Origin: Pseudomonadota bacterium
GTDB lineage: Bacteria > Pseudomonadota > Alphaproteobacteria > Rhizobiales > Aestuariivirgaceae
Direction: 5' to 3'
DNA: 64,000 nucleotides
Assembly (NCBI GenBank): GCA_020161855.1
Contig: JAIUNJ010000001.1
Coordinates: forward strand, 434,001 to 498,000
Positions 14,179 through 55,259 of the stretch are shown here, piece after piece. The notes beneath the pieces are model-generated. The model worked only from the letters and a program-made list of their open reading frames with translations. It did no database searches and had not been told where the DNA came from. A program made the position numbers and the translations under genes. Numbering within the stretch: the stretch's first letter is position 1; the number at the start of each line of letters is the position of its first letter.

Positions 14179-15354
14179 TCAGCGTTCAACGCACATGGCA
14201 ATGCCCATGCCGCCGCCAATGCACAGCGTTGACAGACCCTTCTTGGCCTTGGCGCGCTTCATCTCGTGCAGCAATGTGATGAGCACCCGGGCGCCGGAGG
14301 CACCGATGGGATGGCCCAGCGCGATGGCGCCGCCATTGACATTCACCTTGGCCGGGTCCCAGCCCATGTCCTTGTTCACCGCGCAGGCCTGCGCCGCAAA
14401 GGCCTCATTGGCCTCGATGAGATCGAGATCGCCGGCAGACCAGCCCGCCTTCTTGAGGGCAAGGCGCGAGGCCGGAATGGGGCCTGAGCCCATGATAGCC
14501 GGGTCGACACCGGCGGTGGCGTAGGAGGCGATGCGGGCCAAGGGATCGAGGCCGCGCCTGGCTGCTTCCTTGGCGCTCATAAGGATGAGCACGGCGGCGC
14601 CATCATTGATGCCGCTGGCATTGGCGGCCGTCACAGTGCCGTCCTTCTGGAAGGCCGGCTTGAGCTTGGCGATGGAGTCGAGTGTCACGCCCTTCTTGAT
14701 GTATTCGTCTTCGGCGACGACGATGTCGCCCTTGCGGGTGCTGATCGTGACAGGCACGATTTCGTCCTTGAACTTCCCTGCGGCCTGGGCGGCCTCGGCC
14801 TTGTTCTGCGATTTGACGGCGAATTCATCCTGCTGATCACGGGTGATCTGCCACTGCTTGGCGACATTCTCGGCGGTCGTGCCCATGTGATAGCCATTGA
14901 AGGCGTCCCACAATCCATCCCGGATCATCGTGTCGATGAAGCTCCAGTCGCCCATCTTCACGCCATCGCGCAGGTGCGCGGCATGGGTGGACTTGCTCAT
15001 GGATTCCTGTCCGCCGACAGCCACGATGCTGGCATCGCCCGACTGGATCTGCTGGGCGCCGAGCGCCACGGTGCGAAGCCCCGAGCCGCAGACCTGATTG
15101 ATGCCCCAGGCGGTGGCGCTGTTGGGAATGCCGGCGTGGATTGCGGCCTGGCGTGCGGGGTTCTGGCCCTGCGCGGCGGTGAGAACCTGGCCGAGGATCA
15201 CCTCGTTGACATCCGCTGCTTCGATCCCGGCGCGTGCAATGGCGGCCTTGAGGGCGACGGTGCCGAGCTGTGCTGCCGTCTGTGACGCCAGCGCACCGTT
15301 GAAGGAACCGATGGCTGTGCGGGCGGCGGAAACGATGACGATGTCGGAGGACAT
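14179..15354 (-). CDS. phaA: Acetyl-CoA C-acetyltransferase (beta-ketothiolase) PhaA
   Basis: PhaA condenses two acetyl-CoA to acetoacetyl-CoA. The 391-residue thiolase has the nucleophile Cys89 in [21 protein letters not shown] with the catalytic His near 347, and the second Cys in [11 protein letters not shown] near 377. The start at 15354 ([16 protein letters not shown]) is the conventional thiolase start. It is divergent from phaR across 289 nt. Confidence 0.97.
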
Positions 15355-15508
15355 GGAAACTCCCGGAATTGAAGGTTGGTGGTGTCTGCTACACATAGTG
15401 CGTCTTGCGCCATGACGGAACTGTCTTGGCAGCAAAACGGCATGACTGTGTTGCCCTGCTTTCGTTTGCCTTGACGATTGTTGCGCCCCCAAAGCACGGG
15501 CGCATGAA

Positions 15509-15520
15509 TGCTGCAATGCG
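15509..15520 (-). promoter_or_regulatory. Candidate PhaR-type box in the phaA-phaR intergenic region (11 of 12)
   Basis: On the minus strand this reads CGCATTGCAGCA, one mismatch (first base) from TGCRNYGCASMA, the TGC-rich motif I recall for a rhizobial PhaR. It lies between divergent phaA and phaR, where autoregulation would be expected. Binding is inference. Confidence 0.4.
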
Positions 15521-15643
15521 ACATATGTCTCGTGCAGGACAGCCACCTGTTTTTGCGCTTGCAATTGTGCGGTGCGAGGGGCAGGTTTTTATACCGCGCC
15601 GCACCTTTATTCACGTCCGGCGCTTGTCCGGGAGAACAAGTCC

Positions 15644-16282
15644 GTGAGTGAAGACCAGGGCCCAAGCAAACAAGAACAGCCGAAAAATGCTACCGTCATC
15701 AAGAAATATGCGAACCGGCGGCTCTACAACACAGCCACCAGCACCTATGTGACACTCGAAGACCTGTCGCGCATGGTCAAGGAAGGCTCGGACTTCATCG
15801 TCTATGATGCCAAGACCGGCGAAGACATCACCCGCGGCGTGCTCACGCAGATCATCTTCGAGGAAGAGAACAAGGGTGAGAACAACCTTCTCCCGATCAA
15901 TTTCCTGCGCCAGCTCATACGCTTCTATGGCGACAACATGCAGGCCATGGTTCCGGGCTATCTCGAATTCTCCATGGGCAACCTGCTCAAGGAGCAGGAG
16001 AAGCTGCGCAACCAGATGTTCGAGTCCTTCGGCGGCGATGCCTTCAAAGCCGTTGAGGAACAGGCCAAGCGCAACATGCAGCTGTTCCAAGATTCGCTGC
16101 GCATGTTCACGCCCTTCGGCTCGGCCATGCCGAACTTTCCCAATCCCTTCGGTGGTGGCGGTGCTGCTCCACGCGCGGCGGCAAGCGAAAAGCCGTCATC
16201 CGGTCCGAGCAAGGATGAACTGCAATCGCTGAAGGAGCAGCTTGCCGCGATGCAGCAGAAGATCGATCAGCTCAACCGCTAA
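15644..16282 (+). CDS. phaR: Polyhydroxyalkanoate synthesis repressor PhaR
   Basis: PhaR binds DNA and polyhydroxybutyrate and represses phasin and other genes until polymer appears. The 212-residue protein has the PHB/PHA accumulation regulator DNA-binding domain (VIKKYANRRLYNTATSTYVTLEDL, about residues 17-40). The PHB-accumulation regulatory region follows (ILPINFLRQLIRFYGDN-like). The C-terminus (DELQSLKEQLAAMQQKIDQL) is coiled-coil. The GTG at 15644 with GGAG upstream is preferred over an ATG-led extension from 15572. It is also called AniA in some rhizobia. Confidence 0.93.
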   Translation: MSEDQGPSKQEQPKNATVIKKYANRRLYNTATSTYVTLEDLSRMVKEGSDFIVYDAKTGEDITRGVLTQIIFEEENKGENNLLPINFLRQLIRFYGDNMQAMVPGYLEFSMGNLLKEQEKLRNQMFESFGGDAFKAVEEQAKRNMQLFQDSLRMFTPFGSAMPNFPNPFGGGGAAPRAAASEKPSSGPSKDELQSLKEQLAAMQQKIDQLNR

Positions 16283-20392: not shown

Positions 20393-20478
20393 TAAGGATT
20401 TGTTAAGTTGTTATAACAGCATAAAAATTTCTCAATCATCATGGAATGAGCGGTATGAGAAATTTGCATTTCACTTTT

Positions 20479-20490
20479 TGCTGCAACGCA
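20479..20490 (-). promoter_or_regulatory. Perfect PhaR-type TGC box upstream of the DUF1127 pair
   Basis: The minus strand reads TGCGTTGCAGCA, a full match to TGCRNYGCASMA and identical to the box before ecm (45005-45016). It lies 79 nt upstream of the first DUF1127 ATG, in an otherwise AT-rich leader. Recognition by PhaR is inference. Confidence 0.5.
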
Positions 20491-20569
20491 CATATCTTTT
20501 GCCTGTTGAAAAAACAAAAGTAGCACTCCGGGACAGGCCCGGTGAGACATTGAAGAGAAGGATATCAAG

Positions 20570-34804: not shown

Positions 34805-34964
34805 TTCTTAGTGCCCCCGATAAGAAGCGCAGGAGTTTTCCGCCCTTCGTTAAACATGAAGGGCGCAACTACCCTGCGCCGCTGTTGTGGATGAGCCCTT
34901 TGACTGACCGAATGTGACCAGAATGAGGTTTACGGCCAGGGCCTTATTTTCTCTGGACTGTGTT

Positions 34965-34976
34965 GCTGCAGTGCAA
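34965..34976 (-). promoter_or_regulatory. Perfect PhaR-type TGC box upstream of obgE and the transglycosylase
   Basis: The minus strand reads TGCACTGCAGCA, a full match to TGCRNYGCASMA. It sits inside the 34962-34979 dyad, 161 nt from the transglycosylase start and 187 nt from obgE, so it could act on either. PhaR recognition is inference. Confidence 0.45.
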
Positions 34977-35092
34977 CAATTACGAACCCTGAGGGCTATA
35001 TGGCCGGATTCATCCGGCCGTTCAAGCCAAAATGCCGGGGCTGGCCCTTGGGGTTAATCTGGTCCCGGCGGTGGCCTAAAAGGCCAAAAATG

Positions 35093-35153: not shown

Positions 35154-36208
<1,055 letters not shown>

Positions 36209-36209
<1 letters not shown>

Positions 36210-43027: not shown

Positions 43028-44989
43028 TCAGGAGGCCCGGGCCTTCTCCATCAGGCCGATCACTTCTCCCATGATGGCGTTGAGATCGAAATCCTTCGGC
43101 GTGTAGACAGCGGCAACGCCAAGCTGGCGCAGGACATGGGCATCCTCCTCCGGGATGATGCCGCCGACAACGACCGGCACGGAGATATTCCGTGCACGGA
43201 GTTTCTGCATGACATCGCGGACGAGCGGCACATGGGAGCCCGAAAGGATGGAGAGGCCCAGGGCCTGCACTTTCTCGGCCGAAACCTTGTCGACGAGGGC
43301 CTCCGGCGTCATGCGGATGCCGTCATAGATCACATGGAGGCCGGTTTCGGCGGCCCGGGTGGCGATCTGCTCGGCACCATTGGAGTGGCCATCGAGGCCC
43401 GGCTTGCCGACAAGGAATTTCGGTTTTGAACCAATGTCTTGCGCCAGTGCTTCCACACGCGTGCGAAGGCCTTCAAGCGATATGTCACCGGCATTTCCGG
43501 CGGGACTGAGGGAAACACCGGTGGGGGCCCGGTATTCGCCGAAGACCTGGCGCAGGGTATCGGCCCATTCGCCGGTGGTGACGCCCGCCCGGGCACAGGC
43601 AATGGAAGGCTCCATGATGTTGCGGCCTTCGGCGGCGGCGCGGCGCAGCTCTGCGATCGCGGCGGAAACGGCGGTGTTGTCACGGGTGGCGCGCCAGGCC
43701 CTGAGACGGGCGATCTGCTCATCCTCGACATGATCCTTGACGGTCATGATGGCGTCGCCTGCGGCGAGCGGCGAAGGCTCGCCCGAGGTGTGGATGTTGA
43801 CGCCGACGATCTTCGTCTCACCACTTTCGATGGCGCGCAGCCTTGCGGTGTTGGAGGCCACCAGCGCCTCCTTCATGTAGGCAATGGCGGCAGGTGCCGC
43901 GGCACCACCCAATGCTTCAAGCCGGGCCTGCTCGCTGCGCGCCGCAGCTTTCAGTTCCTCGACCTTGGCGTCGACGACGGGCGAGCCATCGAAGAGATCG
44001 CCATAGTCGAGGAGGTCGGTTTCCAGCGCCATGATCTGCTGCATGCGGAGCGACCATTGCTGATCGAAGGGGCGCGGCAGGCCGAGCGCCTCGTTCCAGG
44101 CGGGAAGCTGCACGGCGCGGGCGCGGGCCTTCTTCGACAGGACGACGCCAAGCATCTCGATCAGGATGCGATAGACATTGTTCTCGGGTTGCTGCTCGGT
44201 GAGGCCCAGCGAATTGACCTGCACGCCATAGCGGAAGCGCCGGAGCTTCGCGTCGCTGACGCCATAGCGCGCGCGCAGCAGCTCGTCCCAGAGATCGACG
44301 AAGGCCCGCATCTTGCACATCTCGGTGACGAAGCGGATTCCGGCATTGACGAAGAAGGAGATGCGGCTGGCAACCTGCGGGAAGGCCTCGGCTGAGATTT
44401 CCGGCGCGGCCCGCGCGGCATCAAGCACGGCTGTGGCGGTGGCCAGCGCGAAGGCGAGTTCCTGCACCGGCGTCGCGCCCGCTTCCTGCAAATGATAAGA
44501 GCAGACGTTGACCGGATTGAACTTCGGCAGTTCGCGCGTGGCGAAGGCAATGGTGTCGGCGGTGAGCCGCAGCGAGGCTTGCGGCGGAAACACATAGGTG
44601 CCGCGGGCCAGATATTCCTTGATGATGTCGTTCTGCGTCGTTCCCTGCAGCTGGGCGCGGGCAGCACCCTGGGTATCGGCGGCGGCGACATAGAGCGCCA
44701 GCAGCCAGGGGGCGGTGGCGTTGATCGTCATCGAGGTGTTCATGGCGGCGAGCGGGATGCCCTCGAAGAGCGTCTGCATGTCGCCCAGGTGGGAAATGGG
44801 AACGCCCACCTTGCCGACCTCGCCACGGGCCAGTGGATGATCGCTGTCGTAACCCGTCTGCGTCGGCAGATCGAAGGCGACCGACAGGCCGGTCTGGCCG
44901 CGCGAGAGATTGGTGCGGAAGAGACGGTTCGATTCGGCTGCCGTGGAATGGCCCGCATAGGTGCGGAAGAGCCAGGGTTGGTCAGTCAT
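43028..44989 (-). CDS. ecm: Ethylmalonyl-CoA mutase (MeaA type)
   Basis: Ecm is a B12 enzyme that converts ethylmalonyl-CoA to methylsuccinyl-CoA in the ethylmalonyl-CoA pathway. The 653-residue protein has the MeaA-type start PWLFRTYAGHSTAAESNRLFRTNL, the barrel motif NTSMTINATAPWLLALY, and KEYLARGTYVFPPQASLRL. The C-terminal cobalamin domain has the His ligand in GLDGHSNGAEQ (near 531) and SGSHVPL. The single-chain form and these stretches match ethylmalonyl- rather than methylmalonyl-CoA mutase. The start at 44989 is 15 nt from a TGC box. Confidence 0.93.
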   Translation of the reverse strand: MTDQPWLFRTYAGHSTAAESNRLFRTNLSRGQTGLSVAFDLPTQTGYDSDHPLARGEVGKVGVPISHLGDMQTLFEGIPLAAMNTSMTINATAPWLLALYVAAADTQGAARAQLQGTTQNDIIKEYLARGTYVFPPQASLRLTADTIAFATRELPKFNPVNVCSYHLQEAGATPVQELAFALATATAVLDAARAAPEISAEAFPQVASRISFFVNAGIRFVTEMCKMRAFVDLWDELLRARYGVSDAKLRRFRYGVQVNSLGLTEQQPENNVYRILIEMLGVVLSKKARARAVQLPAWNEALGLPRPFDQQWSLRMQQIMALETDLLDYGDLFDGSPVVDAKVEELKAAARSEQARLEALGGAAAPAAIAYMKEALVASNTARLRAIESGETKIVGVNIHTSGEPSPLAAGDAIMTVKDHVEDEQIARLRAWRATRDNTAVSAAIAELRRAAAEGRNIMEPSIACARAGVTTGEWADTLRQVFGEYRAPTGVSLSPAGNAGDISLEGLRTRVEALAQDIGSKPKFLVGKPGLDGHSNGAEQIATRAAETGLHVIYDGIRMTPEALVDKVSAEKVQALGLSILSGSHVPLVRDVMQKLRARNISVPVVVGGIIPEEDAHVLRQLGVAAVYTPKDFDLNAIMGEVIGLMEKARAS

Positions 44990-45004
44990 CGGAAAGGCCT
45001 GTTT

Positions 45005-45016
45005 TGCGTTGCAGCA
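45005..45016 (+). promoter_or_regulatory. Perfect PhaR-type TGC box before ecm
   Basis: TGCGTTGCAGCA matches TGCRNYGCASMA at every position. It is identical to the minus-strand box before the DUF1127 genes. It lies 15 nt upstream of the ecm ATG, where a bound repressor would block initiation or early elongation. PhaR recognition is inference. Confidence 0.5.
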
Positions 45017-45070
45017 ATGCAAGCATGGGCCGCGGGGCCGCTGCAACTCTCCTTCCGTCGCAGCAGGCGG

Positions 45071-45436
45071 TCAGCGCGAGCGCGCCTCGGCGGCCTTGAA
45101 GGCGACGAGTAGGAGCATGGCTCCGAGGCCATTGCCTAGCATGGTGAAGACGATGATGCGCTCAAAATCGGTGATGGTGCCGGGCATGAGCCGGGCGGCG
45201 ACACCATTGATGAAGAAACCGAGGACGAGGAAGAGGATGGCGGCGATGGGGGCCGTGAGCAACGGTGGTCCGCCGAGGATGCGCGAGGTGAACCAGGCGG
45301 AGAGCCCGCAGAGCAGGCAGAGCAGGTAAAACTCGTTCTCGGAGGGCTGCCAAAGGGCCGTGAGGTCGAAAAACGCCTCCCAGTCTCCCAATGATATCCC
45401 AAGGCTTTCGAGCACCGCCACAATCCCAATGGCCAC
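45071..45436 (-). CDS. Membrane protein of unknown function, divergent from ccr
   Basis: This 121-residue protein has about three or four membrane segments (FYLLCLLCGLSAWFTSRIL, LLTAPIAAILFLVLGFFINGVAARL, RIIVFTMLGNGLGAMLLLVAF). No family was recognised. The start is GTG at 45436 without a clear Shine-Dalgarno, so it is uncertain. It lies between ecm and ccr and shares the ccr promoter region. A link to C2 metabolism rests only on this position. Confidence 0.65.
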   Translation of the reverse strand: MAIGIVAVLESLGISLGDWEAFFDLTALWQPSENEFYLLCLLCGLSAWFTSRILGGPPLLTAPIAAILFLVLGFFINGVAARLMPGTITDFERIIVFTMLGNGLGAMLLLVAFKAAEARSR

Positions 45437-45451
45437 AAGTCAGGTGGCGAC

Positions 45452-45490
45452 GTCTCACCATGGTATAAAAATCCTTAAGAATGGTGAAAC
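45452..45490. promoter_or_regulatory. Dyad symmetry between ccr and the divergent membrane gene
   Basis: GTCTCACCAT (45452-45461) faces ATGGTGAAAC (45481-45490), a 10-bp inverted repeat with one mismatch and a 19-bp centre that includes TATAAA (45464-45469). The size suits a dimeric regulator. It lies 81-120 nt upstream of the ccr ATG. The regulator is unknown; TetR-type CcrR of methylotrophs is one precedent for ccr control. Confidence 0.45.
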
Positions 45491-45514
45491 GGTTGCGGCA
45501 AATAGGACGAATGG

Positions 45515-45526
45515 TGCAATGCACAA
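45515..45526 (+). promoter_or_regulatory. Perfect PhaR-type TGC box before ccr
   Basis: TGCAATGCACAA fits TGCRNYGCASMA at all positions, 45 nt before the ccr ATG and downstream of the dyad at 45452-45490. The position suits repression or activation of ccr. PhaR recognition is inference. Confidence 0.5.
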
Positions 45527-45571
45527 GAATGCGGTTAGCTGTAGCCTGACGGCAAACTGCGGGAGGAACCC

Positions 45572-46867
45572 ATGCGTGCTGCCCTGAAATCCGTGCCCCT
45601 GACGCCCAAGCCAGAGGGGGCTGAGCTGAAATCCCTCTATGAAATCGGGGAGATCCCGCCGCTCGGCCATGTGCCGGAGAAGATGTATGCGTGGTGCATC
45701 CGGCAGGAGCGCCATGGCGCCCCGGACGAGGCCATGCGGCTTGAGGTGGTGCCCACCTGGGCCATCGGCGAGGATGAATGCCTGATCCTGGTGATGGCGG
45801 CGGGCGTCAACTACAACGGCGTCTGGGCGGCGCTGGGCAAGCCCATCTCGCCCATCGACGGGCACAAGAACCCCTATCATATCGCGGGCTCCGACGCCGC
45901 GGGCGTGGTCTATGCCGTGGGCTCCAAGGTGCGGCGCTGGAAGGTGGGCGACGAAGTCGTGGTCCACTGCAACCAGGATGACGGCGACGACGAGGAGTGC
46001 AATGGCGGCGATCCCATGTTCTCGCCGTCACAGCGCATCTGGGGCTATGAGACGCCGGATGGCTCCTTCGCGCAGTTTGCCCGGGTGCAGGCGCGCCAGC
46101 TTCTGCCCAAGCCGCAGCACCTGACCTGGGAAGAGTCGGGCTGCTACATGCTGTGCCTGGCTACGGCCTATCGCATGCTTTTCGGCCACCGGCCGCATGA
46201 ACTGAGCGCCGGGGAGAGCGTGCTGATCTGGGGCGCCTCGGGCGGGTTAGGCTCCATGGCGACACAGCTTGCCGCGACCACGGGCGCCACCGCAATCGGC
46301 GTTGTCTCCGACGAGGACAAGCGCGACTTCGTGCTGGGGCTTGGCGCGCGCGGGGTTCTCAACCGCAAGGACTTTTCCTGCTGGGGGGCGATGCCCCAGG
46401 TGGGCACCCCGGAATATGCCGCCTGGCTGAAGCAGGCGCGCGAGTTCGGCAAGGCCATCTGGAACATCACTGGCAAGGGCAACAATGTCGACATGGTCTT
46501 CGAGCATCCGGGCGAGCAGACCTTTCCGGTCTCGGTGCTGGTGGTGAAGCGCGGCGGCATGGTCGTGATCTGCGCCGGCACGACCGGCTACAATCTCACC
46601 ATGGATGCGCGTTACCTGTGGATGCACCAGAAGCGCGTGCAGGGTTCGCATTTCGCCAATCTCATGCAAGCCTCCGCCGCCAACAGGCTGGTGCAATCGC
46701 GGCGGATCGACCCGTGCATGTCGGATGTCCATGGCTGGGCCGACATTCCGCAGGCGCACATGAAGATGTGGAAGAACGAGCACCGCCCCGGCAACATGGC
46801 GGTGCTGGTGTCAGCCCCGCGGCCGGGCCTGCGCAGCTTCGAGGATGTGGTGGAAGCGGCGCGCTGA
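45572..46867 (+). CDS. ccr: Crotonyl-CoA carboxylase/reductase
   Basis: Ccr reductively carboxylates crotonyl-CoA to ethylmalonyl-CoA with NADPH, the defining step of the ethylmalonyl-CoA pathway. The 431-residue MDR protein has GVNYNGVWAALGKP, YHIAGSDAAGVVYAVG, the nucleotide motif VLIWGASGGLGSMATQLA (near 215), and the Ccr-specific HCNQDDGDDEECNGGDPMFSPSQRIWGYETPDGSFAQF and FEHPGEQTFPVS. GGGAGGA precedes the ATG. Length and motifs match true carboxylating Ccr. Confidence 0.96.
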   Translation: MRAALKSVPLTPKPEGAELKSLYEIGEIPPLGHVPEKMYAWCIRQERHGAPDEAMRLEVVPTWAIGEDECLILVMAAGVNYNGVWAALGKPISPIDGHKNPYHIAGSDAAGVVYAVGSKVRRWKVGDEVVVHCNQDDGDDEECNGGDPMFSPSQRIWGYETPDGSFAQFARVQARQLLPKPQHLTWEESGCYMLCLATAYRMLFGHRPHELSAGESVLIWGASGGLGSMATQLAATTGATAIGVVSDEDKRDFVLGLGARGVLNRKDFSCWGAMPQVGTPEYAAWLKQAREFGKAIWNITGKGNNVDMVFEHPGEQTFPVSVLVVKRGGMVVICAGTTGYNLTMDARYLWMHQKRVQGSHFANLMQASAANRLVQSRRIDPCMSDVHGWADIPQAHMKMWKNEHRPGNMAVLVSAPRPGLRSFEDVVEAAR

Positions 46868-46884
46868 CGATTGCTTCGCGGGCT

Positions 46885-47781
46885 TCAGCGTTCGCTGCGC
46901 AGGGCTATCATGGCCCGTGCGGCGCGGCGCTGGCGCACGATGTCGATGACGCGGTTCACCTCGCCGCCGAAGATGAGGGCGAGCGCCGAAAGATAGACAA
47001 AGAACATGGCCGCGAAAATGCCGGAGAGCGACGAATAGGTCGAGGCGAAGGTGTTGAAGTGCAGGAGCCAATAGGAAAAGCCGAATGACAGGATGCCCCA
47101 GATCACCACGGTCGTGGTGACGCCGGGGAGGATCATGCGCAGTGGCATGCGTTTTGCCGGCAGGATGATGTGGGCCATGATGACCGAGAAGAAGAGCAGG
47201 GCCACGGCGAGCACGACGCGCATCTGCTCGAGCACGGCGAAGCTTCCGGCAATCTCGATGCCATGGGTCGCGGCGAAGCGCAGCGCCAGCGGCAGGAGCA
47301 CGATGAAGAAGGAAAAGCCTACGAAGAAGATGGCGGCACCGATGACCACGAGGATCTCGATGGCATAGAGATAGGGGGCCGAGCGCAGGTCGCGCAGGTC
47401 ATAGGCACGGTTGAGGCCGACGCGGATTGAATCGACACCGGCCATGGCGCTCCAGATGGTGAGGAGGGCGGCAGCGCTCAGAAGATCGGTGCGCGGCACG
47501 GTGAGGATGGAAATGATCTCGCCCTCAAGCGGGCGGATGATGGCTTCGGGGGCCACCTGCAAAAGGAAATCCACTGCGGCGCGGGCCTGGCCAGTGGTGC
47601 CGAAGAAGCCCGCCAGCGCCGTCAGGAAAATCAGGAAGGGAAACATCGAGAAAAGCGTGCGGAAGGCAATGTTGCCTGCCAGCGGGATCGCCTCGTCGGC
47701 AAAGAGCCGCTTGATGCTCTCGCGCACCAGCGGCAGGACCGCCAGCGTCTCGGGGGCCTCTTCGGTGCCGTTACTCGTCAT
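46885..47781 (-). CDS. YihY/BrkB-family inner membrane protein
   Basis: This 298-residue polytopic protein starts with LVRESIKRLFADEAIPLAGNIAFRTLFSMFPFLIFLTALAGFFG, then has six membrane segments, ILPGVTTTVVIWGILSFGFSYWL and YSSLSGIFAAMFFVYLSALALIFGGEVNRVI. That is the BrkB/YihY signature. Members are often mis-called ribonuclease BN; the transport or structural role is unknown. It is convergent with ccr. Confidence 0.9.
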   Translation of the reverse strand: MTSNGTEEAPETLAVLPLVRESIKRLFADEAIPLAGNIAFRTLFSMFPFLIFLTALAGFFGTTGQARAAVDFLLQVAPEAIIRPLEGEIISILTVPRTDLLSAAALLTIWSAMAGVDSIRVGLNRAYDLRDLRSAPYLYAIEILVVIGAAIFFVGFSFFIVLLPLALRFAATHGIEIAGSFAVLEQMRVVLAVALLFFSVIMAHIILPAKRMPLRMILPGVTTTVVIWGILSFGFSYWLLHFNTFASTYSSLSGIFAAMFFVYLSALALIFGGEVNRVIDIVRQRRAARAMIALRSER

Positions 47782-47807
47782 GGCGGCGGCTTAGCCCGGC
47801 CCGCGGG

Positions 47808-48482
47808 TCAGGCCAAGGCTTTTGCCGCTTCGCTTTCGATGGCCGCCTTGAGTTCCGGCGCCAGTTTCAGGCGGGCGGCCAGCATGGCGAGATAGGCCTG
47901 TTCCGCCGGATCATCCGGATCAATGGCGAGCCTCGAGGCCGCGTAGATCTCGGCAGCGAGCTCGGGCGTCGTCGCGGCGCGGACAACCGCCTCGATATCC
48001 AGCGGCTTCTTCAATTCTTCGGCAAGAAAACTGCGCGCTTCAGGCTCGAGATTGGCTTCCTCGAGCTTGAGGCCGATGCGCTTCTGCTCGGCCTCGTCGA
48101 TATGGCCGTCAGCCTTGGCGGCGGCGATCATGGCGGTGAGAAGGGCAAGGCTCATGGCGTCGCGCTCGGCCTTGGGCGCGGGGAGGAAGGCTGTTCCCTC
48201 AGGATTTGCACCGGCGGCGGGTGTAGCGCTGCCGCCGCGCGAGGCCTGCCACTGGTTCCAGGCCTTATAGGCGAGGCCCGCGACGACGGCCGTGCCGCCG
48301 ACCTTGAGCATGGTTTTGGCCATCTTCTTGGGGCTGCCGCCGCTGAGCAGAATGGTGGCCAGGCTCCCGGCCACGGAACCACCGGCAAGGCCCTTGAGCA
48401 GATCAGGCGATAGCCCCGGCTTGCCGCCCTGCTGGCCCGCACCTCCCAGGAATTGCTCCAGCAGCTTTTGCGGGTCGAACAT
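47808..48482 (-). CDS. DUF533 (YebE-like) protein with TerB-like C-terminal domain
   Basis: The 224-residue protein has a Gly-rich N-terminus with two hydrophobic stretches (LAGGSVAGSLATILL, VGGTAVVAGLAYKAWNQWQ), an Ala-rich linker, and a helical TerB-like region (LLTAMIAAAKADGHIDEAEQKRI, ELAAEIYAASRLAIDPDDPAEQAYLAMLAARLKL). This is DUF533 architecture. GAGGAG precedes the start at 48482. Function is unknown, perhaps envelope stress. It is divergent from the EamA transporter across 60 nt. Confidence 0.87.
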   Translation of the reverse strand: MFDPQKLLEQFLGGAGQQGGKPGLSPDLLKGLAGGSVAGSLATILLSGGSPKKMAKTMLKVGGTAVVAGLAYKAWNQWQASRGGSATPAAGANPEGTAFLPAPKAERDAMSLALLTAMIAAAKADGHIDEAEQKRIGLKLEEANLEPEARSFLAEELKKPLDIEAVVRAATTPELAAEIYAASRLAIDPDDPAEQAYLAMLAARLKLAPELKAAIESEAAKALA

Positions 48483-48542
48483 GGCGGCTCCTCTCAATTG
48501 TCAGTCGTCACAACAGTAAAAGCCGGGCATAGGCCTCGGCCC

Positions 48543-49415
48543 ATGTCCAGCAGATTGATCATCGCGGCGGCACCCGCCCTCTTCGTCATAATGTGGGCGA
48601 CGGGCTTTGTCGTTGCAAGACTTTCAGCGCCACATGTCGATCCTTTCACCTTTCTCGCCATCCGCTTTCCCATTGCCGGTGCGCTCTTTGCGGCCATCGC
48701 GGTGGCGGTGAAGGCGCCATGGCCCGATGGCCGCGCCGCTTTCCATGCGGCGGTGGCGGGGGCACTCATGCATGCCTTCTATCTCGGACCGATCTACTGG
48801 GCCGTGGCCCATGGCCTTCCGGCCGGTGTCTCGGCGCTCATCATCGGACTGCAACCGCTGATCACAGCCTTTCTCGCTGCCGGCATCCTGAAGGAGCCGA
48901 TCGGCATCCGGCACTGGTTCGGGCTTGCGGTCGGCATCCTCGGTGTCGGCCTCGTCATTTCGCCGAAGCTCAGCTTCACCATGCTGGGCGGCATAACGCC
49001 GGTGACCACGGCGGCCTGTGTCTTCGGAGCGGTGGCGATCTCGCTGGGTACGGTCTACCAGAAGCGTTTCGCCACCGGGCTGCACCTGGCGAGTGCCGGT
49101 GTCTGGCAATATGCAGGCGCCAGCATCGTCGTCGGCTTCTGTGCACTGGCCTTCGAGACGCTGCGCTTCGATCACACCTTCGATGCCTGGTTCGCCCTTG
49201 GCTGGTCGGTGATCGTGTTGTCGCTCGGCGCCATCAGCCTGCTCATGCTGCTGATCCGCGAAGGGGCCGTGGCCAAGGTCTCGAGCCTGATCTTCCTCGT
49301 GCCCGCGGTTGCCGCCGCCATGGCCTATGTCATGTTCGGCGAGACGCTCAATCTGATCCAGATTCTCGGCATGGCGGTCTGTGCCGCTGCCGTTCTCGTG
49401 GTGACGCGAAAATAG
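48543..49415 (+). CDS. EamA-family (DMT) transporter
   Basis: This 290-residue protein has ten membrane segments arranged as two EamA repeats (RLIIAAAPALFVIMWATGFVVARL to about 135, then the second from LGGITPVTTAACVFGAVAISLGTVYQKRF). Conserved FLAIRFPIAGALF and the C-terminal LVPAVAAAMAYVMFGETLNLIQILGMAVCAAAVLVV support the family. It probably exports a metabolite; the substrate is unknown. The start at 48543 is chosen over a longer frame that overlaps the divergent gene. Confidence 0.9.
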   Translation: MSSRLIIAAAPALFVIMWATGFVVARLSAPHVDPFTFLAIRFPIAGALFAAIAVAVKAPWPDGRAAFHAAVAGALMHAFYLGPIYWAVAHGLPAGVSALIIGLQPLITAFLAAGILKEPIGIRHWFGLAVGILGVGLVISPKLSFTMLGGITPVTTAACVFGAVAISLGTVYQKRFATGLHLASAGVWQYAGASIVVGFCALAFETLRFDHTFDAWFALGWSVIVLSLGAISLLMLLIREGAVAKVSSLIFLVPAVAAAMAYVMFGETLNLIQILGMAVCAAAVLVVTRK

Positions 49416-49454
49416 GGACGGCGCGGCTGTGCCGCGCTGCCGGTGTTTTGGATC

Positions 49455-50000
49455 TCAGCGGCCATAGGTGACGGTGATGCTGGCCTCGCCGAGGCTGCTG
49501 GCATTGGAGAGGAAGCCCACAAGCGCACCGCTGGCATTGGCTTTCAGGCCGAGCTTTTCGACCTTCAGGGCCTTCACGGTGAAGATGTAGCGATGGGCCG
49601 GTCCGGGTGGCGGACAGGCGCCAAGATAGCCCGCGACATTGGCATCAGCTGTGCTTTGTATGGCACCGGCGGGCAGACTGTTGCCGCCCAGCGCACCGGC
49701 TCCTGCAGGCAGGCCCGAGACCGTTGGCGGAATGTCGAAGGCGACCCAATGCCAGAATCCTGAGCCTGTCGGTGCATCCGGGTCATAGGCCGTGACCACG
49801 AAGCTTTTCGTGCCTTCGGGAATATTGCTCCACAGCAGTTCCGGGGACATGCCGCCGCCGCTGCAGCCAAAGACATTGGCGACCTGTTCCATCTTCAGCG
49901 TGCCGCCTTCGGCGATATCGCGGCTGGTGAGCTCGAAAGCGCCCGCGGGCAGTGCCATCATTACCGATGCTGCGAGGGCAATGGCCAATCTGATCGTCAT
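49455..50000 (-). CDS. Periplasmic YbhB/YbcL-family (PEBP) protein
   Basis: This 181-residue exported PEBP-fold protein has a signal peptide (MTIRLAIALAASVMMALPAGA). The ligand-site motifs are SPELLWSNIPEGTKSFVVTAYDPDAPTGSGFWHWVAFDIP and CPPPGPAHRYIFTVKAL. Bacterial members are called Raf-kinase-inhibitor-like; their biochemical role is unknown. GGAGG precedes the start at 50000. It stands alone between other single genes. Confidence 0.9.
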   Translation of the reverse strand: MTIRLAIALAASVMMALPAGAFELTSRDIAEGGTLKMEQVANVFGCSGGGMSPELLWSNIPEGTKSFVVTAYDPDAPTGSGFWHWVAFDIPPTVSGLPAGAGALGGNSLPAGAIQSTADANVAGYLGACPPPGPAHRYIFTVKALKVEKLGLKANASGALVGFLSNASSLGEASITVTYGR

Positions 50001-50086
50001 GAGAACCTCCATTTGCGAGGCCCCAATCGTTGCACTTCACGTGCGGCAGCGCGCGCCCGCGCCGCGCAAGCTTGCGCCTGTTTCGT

Positions 50087-50914
50087 TCAATCAGCGGGCC
50101 TGCCGCGCAGCCTTGAAGGCGCAACACCAAACCGCTCGCGGAAACGCGCGGCAAAGCGCGACGGCGATTCATAGCCGACGCGGGCAGCGACTGCCGCCAC
50201 ATGGCTGTCGGTCGATTGCAGAAGCGTGAGTGCTGCCGTCAACCGCACATCCTGGAGTACATCCGTCCACGACGTGCGGCGTTCGGCAAGCCTGCGGCGC
50301 AAGGTGGCCTCGCTGACCGCAAGCGCATTGGCGATGGTTGCGCCTGTCCAGCCAAAGGCCGGATCCTGCGCGACGAGAAGACGAATACGCTGCTCGACGG
50401 TCTCCGCGCGCGGCGCCACGAGACTGACGCCGCTTTCATTGAGCCACAACAACAGTTCACCCAGCCGGTGGCGGACGATGCTCAAGGGCAGGCTCACATC
50501 GGTGATGGCCCGGTGCGCCACGTCGAAGGCCATTGCCAGCTCCGGCCCCACGGCTGCGAGGCTTGCGATATCCGCGACCGGCTTCGTTCCCGCCGCAGGC
50601 AGTGGCGGAAGCAGCGGGCTTTCAAAAAAGATGGCCTCGGCACGATAGGGGCCATCTGCAGCCGGGGTGTTCGTGACATCAAAAGCCTTGCCGCCGGCAA
50701 ACAGCGCAATGGCTCCTGCGGGAAACCCGAGACGTTTGCGCCCCACCTTCACGTCCTTGGTGCCAGCCACCACGCGCACAAGGCCCGGCTGCGTGACCGA
50801 AAGATGCGGGGCTGACAAGGCAATATCCTGCATGATCGACGCCGCCATGCCGGCACCCGGCCTGCATTCCAGGTGGCGCCCGCTTGCGCTTGCGGCCGGC
50901 AGTTTCTTCAGCAT
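50087..50914 (-). CDS. AraC-family transcriptional regulator
   Basis: This 275-residue protein has an N-terminal sensor (about 30-165) without recognised ligand motifs. Its C-terminal double helix-turn-helix is GATIANALAVSEATLRRRLAERRTSWTDVLQDVRLTAALTLLQSTDSHVAAVAARVGYESPSRFAARFRERFGVAPSRLR, typical of AraC. The start is uncertain: 50914 lies just after the stop of the upstream DUF1232 gene, while 50833 is a shorter option. The target is unknown; the PEBP gene is adjacent. Confidence 0.87.
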   Translation of the reverse strand: MLKKLPAASASGRHLECRPGAGMAASIMQDIALSAPHLSVTQPGLVRVVAGTKDVKVGRKRLGFPAGAIALFAGGKAFDVTNTPAADGPYRAEAIFFESPLLPPLPAAGTKPVADIASLAAVGPELAMAFDVAHRAITDVSLPLSIVRHRLGELLLWLNESGVSLVAPRAETVEQRIRLLVAQDPAFGWTGATIANALAVSEATLRRRLAERRTSWTDVLQDVRLTAALTLLQSTDSHVAAVAARVGYESPSRFAARFRERFGVAPSRLRGRPAD

Positions 50915-50915
50915 G

Positions 50916-51263
50916 CTAGGCCAAAGGTTGCTTGCCCTTGCGGATGAGGTCAAGCGTCGTGCGGGCCCGGTCGCGGTGATCGCTGGTGATGTGCTTCTTC
51001 ATCAGGGTGAAGGCGGTGATGAGCACGGCCATGTCGTCGCTGAAGCCGAGGCCGAGAATGACATCGGGGATCATGTCGAGCGGCAGGACGAAATAGGCCA
51101 GCGCGCCGAAAAGCGTCGCCTTGACGCGCAGCGGCGTGGCGCTGTCGGTTGCACAATAATAGGCGGCAAGCGCCTCATCCGAAAACGGGATGCGCGCCGC
51201 CGTCGTCGCGATCTTGGGCCAGAAGCCCTCGCGCACCGTCTGTTCGTCAGTCTTGCTCACCAT
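50916..51263 (-). CDS. YkvA-like DUF1232 protein
   Basis: This 115-residue protein has the DUF1232 core: VKATLFGALAYFVLPLDMIPDVILGLGFSDDMAVLITAFTLMKKHI (about 55-100), a hydrophobic hairpin with the conserved P-D-x-I-P-D pattern. GGGAGG precedes the start at 51263. The function of the family is unknown. It may be co-transcribed with the AraC gene that begins one base after its stop. Confidence 0.88.
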   Translation of the reverse strand: MVSKTDEQTVREGFWPKIATTAARIPFSDEALAAYYCATDSATPLRVKATLFGALAYFVLPLDMIPDVILGLGFSDDMAVLITAFTLMKKHITSDHRDRARTTLDLIRKGKQPLA

Positions 51264-51334
51264 GGCGAACCTCCCCAAACGGTTATGCCAGATGGGAAGC
51301 CTCGCCGCGGATTTCAAGGGAGAAACGCGCGGGT

Positions 51335-51529
51335 TCAGGGGCCCCGGCCGGTAAACCAGAGCGTGGCCATCAGCACGATGATGGCAAGAAACTGCAGACC
51401 GACGCGCCAGCGCATGAGATTCTGCGAACGGTTGCCTGAACCGCCGCGCATCATGTTGACGAGACCCATGATCAGGACCAGGGCAACAGCGGCAACGGCG
51501 ATGAAACCAAAGGAATTGCTGAGCGACAT
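51335..51529 (-). CDS. Twin-transmembrane HIG1-domain protein
   Basis: This 64-residue protein has two membrane segments (FGFIAVAAVALVLIMGLVNMM and VGLQFLAIIVLMATLWF) joined by a basic loop with QNLMRWRVGLQ, the HIG1 signature. HIG1 proteins in mitochondria bind cytochrome oxidase supercomplexes; alphaproteobacterial homologues are thought to aid oxidase assembly or stability. That role is inferred here. A start three codons earlier (51538) is equally possible. Confidence 0.82.
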   Translation of the reverse strand: MSLSNSFGFIAVAAVALVLIMGLVNMMRGGSGNRSQNLMRWRVGLQFLAIIVLMATLWFTGRGP

Positions 51530-51599
51530 GGCGCCCATTTAAATCCAATCGGGCCGCCGCGGCAAAGGCGGATTGCCGCAGCGGCCATGTGGTTTTGGA

Positions 51600-52571
51600 C
51601 TAGCGGGCCTGTGCCGGCCTGCGGCCACCGAACATGTCGCGGGCCTTGTCGCCAAGGCTGCGGAACTTGTCCGAGACCTCGGTGAGGCGGCGGTCCCATT
51701 CCGGATCTGGCCTCTGGCCCTCGATGGTGGCGAAGTAGACCTGCATGAGGCACATGATCGAGAAGGGCTCGATCAGGGCCGAGCGGAAGGCCCAGGCAAA
51801 GATGATGGCGGCAATAAAGCCATAGCCGCCCCACTCGCCCGGGAAGGCATAGAGAATGGCGCCGGCGGGCGCGATCATCAGGAAGAACACGATGATGGTC
51901 ACCACCCAGGAGATGACGGCGAGCCAGACAGCATTGCGCACCATGACCCAGCCATTCTGGGCATAGAGGATGAGCGACTCCTTCGACGTGGCATAGGGGT
52001 TCTCGCTGCGCAGGAGCATGTTGCGGGCAAGGATCACTTCATCGACATAGGTGACGGAGATGCGGATCACCGTTGAGATGAAGCCGACGAGACCCTGCAG
52101 GCCGGGAATCGGCAGGATCGCGGAGATGGTTCCGAGCAGGCCGGTGATGGCGCGGACCACGCCCTTGATCAGCTGGTCCAGGCCGAACAGGATGCTCGCT
52201 TCGGCGAAGCGCGCCTTGACGATATCGGCGCCATAGCGGAGCTGGCCCTGGCCGCCGGGAATCTGTTCGCCCGACATGAGCTCGACCATGACGGCAATAT
52301 GGCCGGCTTTGACCATGTAGAGAATGTACTCGCGCAGAAAATAGACGATGCCACCCACCATGCAGAAGCCGATGAAGCCGCCGATGAAGGTGGACTGCGT
52401 CTGGAAGTCATCGCTGCCTGCGAGACCCAGCGTGTAGCCGATGCCGGCACCAGCACCCGTGGCGACGATGTAGGCGAAGGTGATGGAGAAATAGACGAAG
52501 ACACGGAGAAGCAGATAGGGAAGCGTCCGCGCCATGACCCAGAGGCTGCGGCCAATGGAGAAGTCCCACAT
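51600..52571 (-). CDS. Polytopic membrane protein of unknown function
   Basis: This 323-residue protein has six or more hydrophobic segments (TLPYLLLRVFVYFSITFAYIVATGAGAG, STFIGGFIGFCMVGGIVYFL, GLLGTISAILPIPGLQGLVGFISTV, AVWLAVISWVVTIIVFFLMIAPAGAILY, GFIAAIIFAWAFRSALIEPFSIMCLM). A soluble C-terminus (EGQRPDPEWDRRLTEVSDKFRSLGDKARDMFGG) follows. I do not recognise the family. It appears monocistronic. Confidence 0.82.
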   Translation of the reverse strand: MWDFSIGRSLWVMARTLPYLLLRVFVYFSITFAYIVATGAGAGIGYTLGLAGSDDFQTQSTFIGGFIGFCMVGGIVYFLREYILYMVKAGHIAVMVELMSGEQIPGGQGQLRYGADIVKARFAEASILFGLDQLIKGVVRAITGLLGTISAILPIPGLQGLVGFISTVIRISVTYVDEVILARNMLLRSENPYATSKESLILYAQNGWVMVRNAVWLAVISWVVTIIVFFLMIAPAGAILYAFPGEWGGYGFIAAIIFAWAFRSALIEPFSIMCLMQVYFATIEGQRPDPEWDRRLTEVSDKFRSLGDKARDMFGGRRPAQAR

Positions 52572-52625
52572 AGATCGATCTCTTTCTCGCCCCGCGCGCA
52601 GTCTTAATAGAGTCGCTGGTGGCGA

Positions 52626-53456
52626 TCAATTGCTGTAGCGGTGCACGAAGCGGTCGATGAGGCCCTGCGGCAGGAAACGCCGCGCGAGGGCCGCCACATA
52701 GGTCGGTGTCGTCACGTAGTAATGTGCGGCGGGGTTGGGCTTTTCGAGCGCGAGGATGAGTTTGTCCAGCACGGCTTCGGCGGGGAGCTTGAAGCGGTTG
52801 TTGCCGCCGCGCTGGAAGCGCGCGAGCTGCCCTTTATATTCGGCGCTGTAATGCGTGTTGCTGCGATCGACATTGCGCAGGAAAGCGGCATGGGCGTTCT
52901 TGACGAAATCGCTTTCGATGGGGCCGGGATTGATGGTGACGACCCTGATCTGCGTTGGCGCCAGTTCAAGGCGCATCGTGTCGGTCAGACCCTCAAGGGC
53001 AAACTTGGCGGCATTATAAGGCCCGCGCCACTTGAAGGCCATGATGCCCAGCACCGATGAACATTGCACGATGCGGCCCTCGCCCAGCTTCCGCATCATC
53101 GGCAGGCAAAGTGTTGTCAGTTCATGCCAGCCGAAGAAATTGGCGGCGAACTGCTCTTCCATGACCTTGCGCGTGATGTCCTCGACGGCGCCGGGCTGGC
53201 CATAGGCACCGTTGTTGAAGAGGCCGTAGAGCGTTCCGCCGGTGAGGCGCGAGACCTCTGCGGCGCAAGCCTGCACACTGGCGCTGTCGCGATAATCGAG
53301 GGCGATGGCTTCGAGCCCTTCATCGCGGAGGCGCCGCAGGTCCTTCTCCTGCCGCGCCGTGGCGAAGACGCGATAGCCGCGGGCCTTGAGGCCTTGGGCG
53401 CAGACATAGCCGATGCCGGTGGAACAGCCGGTGACGAGAACGCTTCGCTGATTCAT
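52626..53456 (-). CDS. Short-chain dehydrogenase/reductase, YbbO-like
   Basis: This 276-residue SDR has VLVTGCSTGIGYVCAQGL (near residue 6), NNGAYGQPGAVED, CSSVLGIMAFKWRGPYNAAKFALEGL with catalytic Tyr/Lys, and NPGPIESDF. The TGCSTGIG and NNGAYGQPGA forms match the YbbO/retinol-dehydrogenase-like branch that reduces aliphatic or steroid carbonyls. The substrate is unknown. The start at 53456 lies four bases past the mcd stop, so it is likely co-transcribed with mcd. Confidence 0.9.
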   Translation of the reverse strand: MNQRSVLVTGCSTGIGYVCAQGLKARGYRVFATARQEKDLRRLRDEGLEAIALDYRDSASVQACAAEVSRLTGGTLYGLFNNGAYGQPGAVEDITRKVMEEQFAANFFGWHELTTLCLPMMRKLGEGRIVQCSSVLGIMAFKWRGPYNAAKFALEGLTDTMRLELAPTQIRVVTINPGPIESDFVKNAHAAFLRNVDRSNTHYSAEYKGQLARFQRGGNNRFKLPAEAVLDKLILALEKPNPAAHYYVTTPTYVAALARRFLPQGLIDRFVHRYSN

Positions 53457-53460
53457 GCGT

Positions 53461-55092
53461 TCAGTTTGCACTTTCAAGAAGGCGCTTCGCAATCACCTGG
53501 GCCTGTATTTCGGCGGCGCCTTCGAAAATGTTGAGAATGCGGGCATCGCAGAGCACGCGGCTCGCCTCGAACTCCAGGGCAAAGCCGTTGCCGCCGTGGA
53601 TCTGCACGGTGTTATCGGCATTGGCCCAGGCCACGCGGGCGGCCAGAAGCTTTGCCATGCCGGCCTCGACATCGCAGCGGCGGCCCTCATCCTTGGCGCG
53701 CGCGGCACGATAGGTGAGAAGCCGGGCCACCAGCGTTTCGGCCGCCATCAGGGCGATCTTGTCAGCAACGCGCGGGAAATGGATGATCGGCTTGCCGAAT
53801 TGCACACGGTCGCGGGCATATCTGAGCGCAAGGTCGAGGGCGTTCTGCGCCACGCCCACGGCACGGGCCGCGGTCTGGATGCGGGCCGACTCGAAGGTTT
53901 GCATCAACTGCTTGAAGCCTTGCCCCTCGACGCCCCCTAGAAGATTTTCACCGCTCACGGAGAAGCCTTCGAAGCGGATCTCATATTCCTTCATGCCACG
54001 ATAGCCGAGGACGCCGATTTCCGAACCGGTGATGCCGTCATCCGGGAAGGGGTTCTCGTCGCTGCCCCGGGACTTCTCGGCAAGGAACATCGAGAGGCCC
54101 TTGTAGCCTGGCTCATCCGGATTGCTGCGGGCCAGCAGCATCATGAGGTCGGCGCGGACCGGATGGGTGATCCAGGTCTTGTTGCCGGTGATGCGCCAGC
54201 GGTTGCCCTCGCGGCGCGCACGGGTGCGCAAGGCTCCGAGATCGGAGCCGGTGTTGGGCTCGGTGAAGACGGCGGTCGTCAGGATCTCGCCGGAGGCGAT
54301 GCGCGGCAGCCACCTGTTTTTTTGTTCTTCCGTGCCGCCATGGAGGATGAGTTCGCTGGCGATCTCGGCGCGTGTGCCAAGCGAGCCCACCGCGATCCAG
54401 CCGCGCGAAAGCTCCTCGGAGACAAGGCACATGGACTGCTTGGAGAGGCCGAGGCCGCCATGGGCTTCCGGCAAGGTCAGCGAGAAGACACCGAGATCGG
54501 CCAGTTCGGCGATGATCTCCAGCGGCACGTAGCCGTTCTGCAGGTGCCAGGCATGGGCGAAGGGCTTCACCTTGGCGGCAACGAAGCGGTTCATGCTGAG
54601 GCGCATCTCCTCGAGCTCCGGGGCAAGGCCCGATTCGCCGAAGATGATGCCGCCGTCGCTGGCCTGGATCAGGCTGACGAGGGCGGCGCGATTGGCCGCC
54701 GTGTTGCCGCCGGTGATGAGCGGATGGCGGCGGAGTGGCGCCAGGTCTTCCGCGCCGAGGCCCAGTTCATGGGGGCGGATGAACTCCTGCTGGTTGAGCG
54801 GCAGGCCGCCCGCGACCTGATTGAGATATTCTCCGGCGGCGACCGAGGTGATCAGGCATTCGACATCGCCGAAGGCGCCGCGGCTCGCCAGATCGCCTGC
54901 ATAGTCTGCCAGGGCGCGCAGCGCCTCGCGGTAGGTTGCCAGCCAGGACAGGCCATGGGTGAGGTGCTGTTCCCGGTCGAGGGCTGCGGCATCGCGGCCG
55001 CCGCCAGTGCGGGCCCGGGCCTCTGCCAGTGCCCGGCTTTCGAGCAGGGCCACGGTTTCGGCGGCGTCTCGCAATTGGTCAGCAGTGGTCAC
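53461..55092 (-). CDS. mcd: (2S)-methylsuccinyl-CoA dehydrogenase
   Basis: Mcd oxidises methylsuccinyl-CoA to mesaconyl-CoA in the ethylmalonyl-CoA pathway. The 543-residue protein has an acyl-CoA dehydrogenase core (from about 165: TLPEAHGGLGLSKQSM, TAVFTEPNTGSDLGALRT, ITGNKTWITHPVRADLM, FPRVADKIALMAAET, VQIHGGNGF). It also has an extra helical N-terminal domain of about 160 residues (LSWLATYREALRALADYAGDLA) that distinguishes Mcd from ordinary dehydrogenases of about 380 residues. With ecm and ccr nearby, the assignment is strong. Confidence 0.92.
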   Translation of the reverse strand: MTTADQLRDAAETVALLESRALAEARARTGGGRDAAALDREQHLTHGLSWLATYREALRALADYAGDLASRGAFGDVECLITSVAAGEYLNQVAGGLPLNQQEFIRPHELGLGAEDLAPLRRHPLITGGNTAANRAALVSLIQASDGGIIFGESGLAPELEEMRLSMNRFVAAKVKPFAHAWHLQNGYVPLEIIAELADLGVFSLTLPEAHGGLGLSKQSMCLVSEELSRGWIAVGSLGTRAEIASELILHGGTEEQKNRWLPRIASGEILTTAVFTEPNTGSDLGALRTRARREGNRWRITGNKTWITHPVRADLMMLLARSNPDEPGYKGLSMFLAEKSRGSDENPFPDDGITGSEIGVLGYRGMKEYEIRFEGFSVSGENLLGGVEGQGFKQLMQTFESARIQTAARAVGVAQNALDLALRYARDRVQFGKPIIHFPRVADKIALMAAETLVARLLTYRAARAKDEGRRCDVEAGMAKLLAARVAWANADNTVQIHGGNGFALEFEASRVLCDARILNIFEGAAEIQAQVIAKRLLESAN

Positions 55093-55129
55093 GGCATCCT
55101 CCCGGAGCCGAGCCTAGGAGGGCTTCTTT

Positions 55130-55141
55130 TGCGGCGCAACA
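55130..55141 (+). promoter_or_regulatory. Near-perfect PhaR-type TGC box before mcd (11 of 12)
   Basis: TGCGGCGCAACA differs from TGCRNYGCASMA only at the S position (A). It lies 37 nt upstream of the mcd start in the divergent region shared with the IalB-like gene. Supportive of, but weaker than, the boxes before ecm and ccr. Confidence 0.35.
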
Positions 55142-55259
55142 TCGACCAAGGCCCAATCTGCCGCAATGCCAAAATTGAGCCGGAATCATCAGCGAAAGCC
55201 ATGATCCTTGCTGCGGCCCTTTTGAGGATTGTTAAGATTCGGGGCCTTATGGTTAACGG

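Follow-up and report, generated by a model that had tools for sequence, protein, structure and literature searches.

Does a regulator that senses the storage polymer polyhydroxybutyrate (PHB) also act on the entry of C2 units into the ethylmalonyl-CoA (EMC) pathway? The question is raised by a stretch of 64,000 nucleotides from a bacterium of the Aestuariivirgaceae (Alphaproteobacteria, Rhizobiales; assembly GCA_020161855.1, contig JAIUNJ010000001.1, positions 434,001 to 498,000), referred to here as the window, in which sequences resembling the operator of the PHB-responsive regulator PhaR stand before three genes of the pathway, ccr, ecm and mcd. In many Alphaproteobacteria the EMC pathway takes the place of the glyoxylate cycle or runs beside it, and it has acetyl-CoA, acetoacetyl-CoA and 3-hydroxybutyryl-CoA in common with PHB synthesis. 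Transcriptional control of the pathway looks largely open; a study in Paracoccus excluded putative PccR and MccR homologues and invokes a yet unknown signal (PMC10370305). Comparison of promoters gives strong support to predicted PhaR operators at ccr and weaker support to those at ecm and mcd. It is very probable, judging from these sequences, that the boxes are PhaR operators and that PHB, by titrating PhaR, changes the expression of the EMC genes. If true, a PHB-sensing regulator on ccr would be a direct wire from storage to assimilation, and would provide a handle for the engineering of EMC-derived acids and PHB.

PhaR-type boxes before ccr, ecm and mcd

The ccr gene (45572..46867, plus strand, ATG at 45572) encodes crotonyl-CoA carboxylase/reductase, with a TIGR01751 match of 619.8 bits against a cut-off of 378.55. 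The adjoining gene on the minus strand (43028..44989, ATG at 44989) encodes a protein of the acyl-CoA mutase family that exceeds the cut-offs of TIGR00641 and TIGR00640 and falls below that of NF006944; the family follows from these profiles, and the gene is taken to be ecm, for ethylmalonyl-CoA mutase, from its place beside ccr and its size. Size and proximity to ccr are likewise the grounds on which the gene at 53461..55092 (minus strand, GTG at 55092; 543 amino acids) is presumed to be mcd, encoding (2S)-methylsuccinyl-CoA dehydrogenase, as its matches to acyl-CoA dehydrogenase models are all below cut-off. The presence of phaR itself within the window, asserted in a preliminary description of this DNA, is borne out at 15644..16282 on the plus strand, where TIGR01848 (154.2 bits against a cut-off of 109.45), PF07879 and PF05233 all match above cut-off; the whole genome holds a single PF07879 match, and thus encodes a PhaR orthologue.

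The box before ccr, ATGGTGCAATGCACAAG, occupies 45511..45527 (core 45515-45523), that before ecm, GTTTTGCGTTGCAGCAA, lies at 45001..45017 (core 45005-45013), and that before mcd, CTTTTGCGGCGCAACAT, at 55126..55142 (core 55130-55138), all read on the plus strand. The palindromic core YGCRNYGCR is satisfied at each of them (TGCGTTGCA, TGCAATGCA and TGCGGCGCA). The preliminary description had placed TGCGTTGCAGCA at 45005-45016, 15 nt ahead of the ecm ATG, TGCAATGCACAA at 45515-45526, 45 nt ahead of the ccr ATG, and TGCGGCGCAACA, with one mismatch, at 55130-55141, 37 nt ahead of the mcd GTG, and these places and distances are correct. The 12-mer that it gave as a rhizobial PhaR motif matches the published Bradyrhizobium diazoefficiens consensus TGCRNYGCASMA, which rests on phaP1 and phaP4 footprints together with a promoter alignment and is termed relaxed by its authors (PMC6201568); the match is exact at the ccr and ecm boxes and has one mismatch at the mcd box.

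Could such boxes be chance matches to a degenerate pattern? The bare 12-mer by itself is weak evidence to the contrary. The earlier expectation of 0.5-0.6 occurrences per 64 kb was too low, as shuffled sequences give 1.67; the window has five exact matches at four places, a number reached in 4 of 100 shuffles, and with one mismatch allowed there are 38 matches where 34 are expected. The palindrome TGCRNYGCA together with its arms is a more informative object than the 12-mer. An extended 17-mer, WTKNTGCRNYGCANMAW, has seven sites in the window at no more than one mismatch (0.91 expected; none of 100 shuffles as high), and these include all three EMC boxes (the ccr box with one mismatch) along with sites at 34963, 20478, 20216 and 15508. 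Because the 17-mer was written after the flanks of ccr boxes had been viewed, a matrix test is the cleaner one.

The yardstick for this test was a 21-bp matrix built from 24 Sinorhizobium meliloti PhaR sites whose electrophoretic mobility shift was rated efficient or weak, omitting four exoH sites and repeat listings of one site (PMC12542648, Table 3). The S. meliloti motif is given as WNWD2NYGCRNYGCRNH2WNW, a palindrome with AT-rich arms (PMC12542648), and the boxes described here resemble it in both motif and arms. Training sites score 13.5-27.4. The EMC boxes, arms included, fall inside the span of the training sites, scoring 21.2 at ccr, 17.0 at ecm and 16.6 at mcd, which makes them second, fifth and sixth in the window; the first, third and fourth places go to sites upstream of obgE (24.6), between phaA and phaR (17.9) and before a DUF1127 gene (17.3). 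The top eleven matrix places of the window are all noncoding by a codon-usage score, a measure that rates 69% of window tiles as coding and that errs near gene ends, since the eleventh place (16246) lies within the 3' part of the phaR open reading frame (ORF).

A sigma-70 promoter scan of 44980-45600 found no promoter, so the box cannot be placed relative to -35 and -10 elements and its position does not fix the sign of control. An inverted-repeat search of 44950-45600 (seed 6, minimum length 12) found none. The mcd box sits between mcd and an IalB-family gene that diverges from it (55260-55763, plus strand), and could serve that gene instead of, or besides, mcd. The mcd box is the weakest of the three, a loose pattern being found at 11 of 22 mcd genes in named contigs.

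Conservation of the box in Alphaproteobacteria

Two sets of sequences were compared, 80 named contigs with ccr and 289 genomes drawn from the class, 168 of which have PhaR (PF07879) and 88 of which have a ccr above cut-off. The start codons of ccr, ecm and mcd were extrapolated from tblastn alignments, and families are database labels. Canonical ccr genes of genomes with PhaR number 76, five ccr-family proteins of less than 60% identity having been left out; the omitted rows comprise the second ccr-family copies G034:C13, G087:C5 and G016:C90, as well as L105, which is too short, and G007, which starts late. The preliminary description had named conservation in relatives as a check, and at ccr the box is indeed conserved: the 350 bp upstream of 63 of the 76 genes, from 38 of 42 families, contain a hit. 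Within 250 bp, 58 of the 76 reach a score of at least 14, compared with 11 of 336 ccr coding tiles, while 40 column-permuted palindromic matrices applied to the same upstream regions gave a mean of 0.5 and a maximum of 8 in 76. The named contigs agree: 44 of 79 ccr genes pass a score of 14 (0.9 in shuffles), against 17 of 4293 tiles of 265 bp taken elsewhere in them, or 13 of 1704 such tiles when matched for GC content. With a distance limit of 200 bp, the core YGCRNYGCR occurs at 73 of 79 ccr genes and at 63 of 68 ecm genes, two counts that share DNA in part because the genes are often divergent; altered palindromes within this distance of ccr in the 79 contigs were found 5, 8, 9 and 6 times for four scrambles of the same length and 21 and 16 times for two respaced forms.

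The arms of the box give a further view of its identity, as they can be read from boxes picked without regard to them. Among 102 ccr boxes chosen by TGCRNYGCA alone, position -3 is T at a frequency of 0.82, close to the 0.85 of the S. meliloti sites and far from the 0.28 at 119 core matches located 3' of ccr starts; position -2 is G or T at 0.43 and 0.41 (0.48 and 0.46 in S. meliloti). When promoters were anchored on the box, one per family, most of the information fell inside its 21 bp; a weaker A/T-rich signal preceded the centre by 14-21 bp. The scrambles, shuffles, permuted matrices and contig tiles together rule out chance for ccr as a class, which the 12-mer count could not do, and as an overall explanation of the boxes coincidence is extremely unlikely; for the mcd box in this genome alone, a residual possibility of chance remains. 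The distance of the ccr box from the start codon is variable, with a median start at -108 and quartiles at -154 and -79. Two Paracoccus ccr genes, scoring 9.0 and 15.5, have the box about 20 bp ahead of the start codon.

Conservation is weaker at the other two genes. Among the 38 ecm genes separated from the ccr start by over 900 bp, 13 have a hit (shuffle mean 0.2). Close relatives of mcd occur in 116 of the 289 genomes, and in 11 of the 30 loci examined mcd is directly 3' of ccr; in this subset of 30 of the 116 genomes, a hit precedes 7 of the 19 mcd genes located away from ccr and none of the 11 that follow it (Fisher p 0.029). The box therefore tends to follow the transcription unit, occurring before a non-adjacent mcd and not before one just behind ccr.

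PhaR and other candidate binders

Within the same genome (3.36 Mb), the extended 17-mer has 76 sites at no more than one mismatch, 18 of them exact, while the reversed pattern has four. Fifty of the 76 were listed and 35 were scored with their flanks, namely the 18 exact sites and 17 one-mismatch sites chosen by hand. All 18 exact boxes are noncoding by the codon-usage score (one, L295, lies just below the threshold), as are 10 of the 17 others. The exact 12-mer, with 93 matches against 12 for its control, is less clear, 21 of the 30 matches scored being noncoding. The extended box is thus not as common in coding as in promoter DNA, the outcome that the preliminary description had named as counting against it. 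A phasin gene (PF09361; L307, G000:C16:48065) has an exact extended box in front of it, and so does a pdhA-like gene (L291, G000:C1:258679), an E1 component whose best model, pyruvate dehydrogenase E1 alpha, is slightly below cut-off. Since phasins and pyruvate dehydrogenase are known types of PhaR target, these boxes tie the motif to PhaR in this organism. Phasin genes, the canonical PhaR target, score similarly to ccr across the class, with a hit at 20 of 30 best phasin matches (18 of 28 where PhaR was matched, 2 of 2 where it was not), and the upstream regions of phaR itself have one in 12 of 28 cases (from 30 loci; 0.4 expected).

A different regulator of acetate metabolism could occupy the palindrome in place of PhaR: a TetR protein like CcrR, an ScfR such as PccR or RamB, or another factor. 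CcrR of Methylorubrum extorquens is, unlike PhaR, reportedly a TetR family activator. It has been cited as an activator of an EMC gene (PMC10370305), and the ccrR mutant retains half of the Ccr activity (PMC4207312). Many ccr promoters also contain a second conserved palindrome, at which another factor probably acts, and a ccr box is found in two genomes without a PhaR match. RamB of P. denitrificans connects the EMC pathway with acetate assimilation, ccr being induced on acetate, yet it controls the glyoxylate cycle; the signal that lowers the EMC pathway is left as yet unknown there, and the available text names no regulator of ccr and does not contain 'PhaR' (PMC10370305). In that organism, growth and pathway expression stayed the same when putative homologues of PccR and MccR were deleted (PMC10370305). 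Core and arms of the box equal those of the gel-shift-positive PhaR motif, and the same extended box precedes the phasin and pdhA-like genes of this genome and phasin genes elsewhere, which makes another binder improbable.

That the boxes are PhaR operators, as first proposed in the preliminary description, is thus supported by the fit to the matrix, the unselected arms, the 38 of 42 families at ccr, the noncoding placement and the boxes at phasin and pdhA-like genes, and is weakest for mcd. Several observations weigh against it or narrow it. A motif match does not guarantee binding; in S. meliloti, PhaR gave no shift with guaB (PMC12542648). An ORF of 121 amino acids without a family match (45071-45436), upstream of ecm and on its strand, may put the ecm box inside an operon. 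With a loose pattern, the mcd contrast shrinks to 11 of 19 non-adjacent and 3 of 11 adjacent genes. Four families with PhaR (f132, f39, f97 and f81) have no hit at ccr, and in the named contigs just 12 of 32 ccr genes of Rhodobacterales, assigned by record title, score at least 14, as opposed to 32 of 47 others, though 26 of 32 and 41 of 47 pass a score of 10. The only other EMC genes looked at, an epimerase gene and a mch/mcl-like pair named by weak matches, lack a good box: the best score upstream of the epimerase (L330) is 6.2, and the hit of 8.2 near the mcl-like gene (L326) apparently coincides with the start codon of that gene. Conversely, the ccr box is present without a PF07879 match in G064 (68% complete, L184) and G118 (80% complete, L219), and the phasin-gene box in G064 and in G187 (96% complete, L282); G064 does have phasin genes, and G118 alone represents its family. 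Either PhaR was missed there through assembly gaps, or the box does not strictly track PhaR and has another binder. Genomes with ccr and without a detected PhaR have a ccr hit in 2 of 8 cases compared with 63 of 76 (Fisher p 0.0014 by genome, 0.019 by family), but this shortage says little because the eight promoters are few and AT-rich (GC 0.35), with 0.2 boxes expected by chance.

How would PhaR act at these genes? A PhaR oligomer is predicted to bind the palindrome. Under a surplus of acetyl-CoA, PHB would accumulate, its granules would sequester PhaR, and PhaR would leave the operators of ccr, ecm and mcd; transcription for the dedicated steps from crotonyl-CoA to mesaconyl-CoA would then change, most likely rising by derepression as at phasin genes. 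Storage and C2 assimilation, with their common first intermediates, would in this way be set together. PhaR control of the flow of C2 units into the pathway, also put forward in the preliminary description, and its direction are what we infer from the placement of the boxes. The PhaR (AniA) regulon of S. meliloti includes genes for phasins and PHB depolymerases as well as for pyruvate and acetyl-CoA metabolism; there, sequestration of PhaR by PHB frees the phasin and depolymerase genes from repression (PMC12542648). If ccr, ecm and mcd behave likewise, PhaR would keep their expression low as long as PHB is scarce, and repression is probable. Activation is a lesser possibility, as PhaR raises pyruvate dehydrogenase in S. 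meliloti (PMC12542648) and the positions of ccr boxes vary.

In contrast to the genome described here, where the assimilation genes with boxes belong to the EMC pathway, the main text on S. meliloti contains neither 'ethylmalonyl' nor 'ccr' (PMC12542648). In B. diazoefficiens, pdhA and pckA were proposed as further PhaR targets, in keeping with the boxed pdhA-like gene, but the main text lacks 'ethylmalonyl', 'crotonyl' and 'methylmalonyl' (PMC6201568). M. extorquens AM1 is an EMC-pathway organism in which phaR is said to act in the partitioning of acetyl-CoA flux; the main text of that phaR-deletion transcriptome study contains no 'ccr', 'ecm' or 'crotonyl', an absence that counts against PhaR control of ccr, and in it neither an operator nor an effect on ccr or ecm is named, the speculation being directed to the shared thiolase step (PMC6520949). 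In type II methylotrophs, PhaR and Ccr are both widespread and are not linked to each other in the text available (PMC11237726). A full-text literature search, whose scope excluded preprints and most subscription papers and which leaves priority unproven, did not turn up any paper that places PhaR sites at ccr, ecm or mcd or describes PhaR effects on them.

The M. extorquens main text, in naming no ccr or ecm change, also fits a weaker role, in which PhaR binds and merely trims the EMC genes while another factor exerts the main control. Some effects of S. meliloti PhaR on central metabolism are modest and some sites are weakly bound (PMC12542648), and with a strict pattern 20 of 144 ccr promoters contain both the PhaR box and the second motif. 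Still, a box that 38 of 42 families retain, and in which most of the promoter information is concentrated, points to a selected function, and a mere trimming role is rather unlikely. Beyond this genome, PhaR may be an ancestral, class-wide regulator of EMC entry, with the PHB level gating ccr, and often ecm and mcd, together with a second factor on GWMATWWWATTWC; this proposal, evenly balanced on the sequences compared, would answer the question of EMC control in Paracoccus and Rhodobacter.

Further boxes and the second palindrome

The third-ranked box of the window, ATGCTGCAATGCGACAT (15508..15524, plus strand, matrix 17.9), has one core mismatch and lies between phaR and phaA (14179..15354, minus strand; PF00108 and PF02803). 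The acetyl-CoA acetyltransferase encoded by phaA catalyses the first step common to PHB synthesis and the EMC pathway. Beside it, the short-chain dehydrogenase family gene at 13410..14135 (minus strand; PF13561 and PF00106) is named phaB, for acetoacetyl-CoA reductase, by its context near phaA and phaR. The highest-ranking place is an exact extended box (34963..34979, plus strand, matrix 24.6) in the gap upstream of obgE (GTP1_OBG protein; 35163-36209).

Elsewhere in the genome, an exact box directly precedes a gene of the isocitrate/isopropylmalate dehydrogenase family (L295, G000:C5:8455), so that genes for acetyl-CoA supply, possibly oxidation, and storage share the same box (L291, L295 and L307). 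Two PhaR-type sites (16.5 and 12.0) lie 94 and 71 bp upstream of a match to a MaoC-type hydratase gene (L331, G000:C18:216745). Malyl-CoA lyase was not identified in this genome, and an exact box 5' of L329 was rejected as an EMC hit, because the models matched by L328 and L329, below cut-off, are those of HpaI-like aldolases and not of malyl-CoA lyase; the box there, L296, is at a gene for an ATPase inhibitor zeta subunit. Exact boxes also occur in pairs, 87 bp apart at L293/L294 (G000:C2:21659 and 21746) and 45 bp apart at L298/L299 (G000:C7:378908 and 378953). Phasin promoters of S. meliloti have box pairs as well, spaced more closely than these (PMC12542648).

The second palindrome, GWMATWWWATTWC (for example GACATAAAATTAC), was derived by expectation maximization from the same promoter set in which it was counted (loci L031-L110 and L141-L230), and 31 of 144 ccr promoters contain it (shuffle expectation 0.0). 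In 13 of the 20 co-occurrences its centre is 77-83 bp upstream of the PhaR box. A looser form was not found at ccr, ecm or mcd of the window. The sole matrix hit for this motif in the window is at 20416-20437, and the small-protein gene that follows (DUF1127, PF06568; 20570-20719) is thus preceded both by it and by the fourth-ranked PhaR-type box (20478..20494, plus strand, matrix 17.3).

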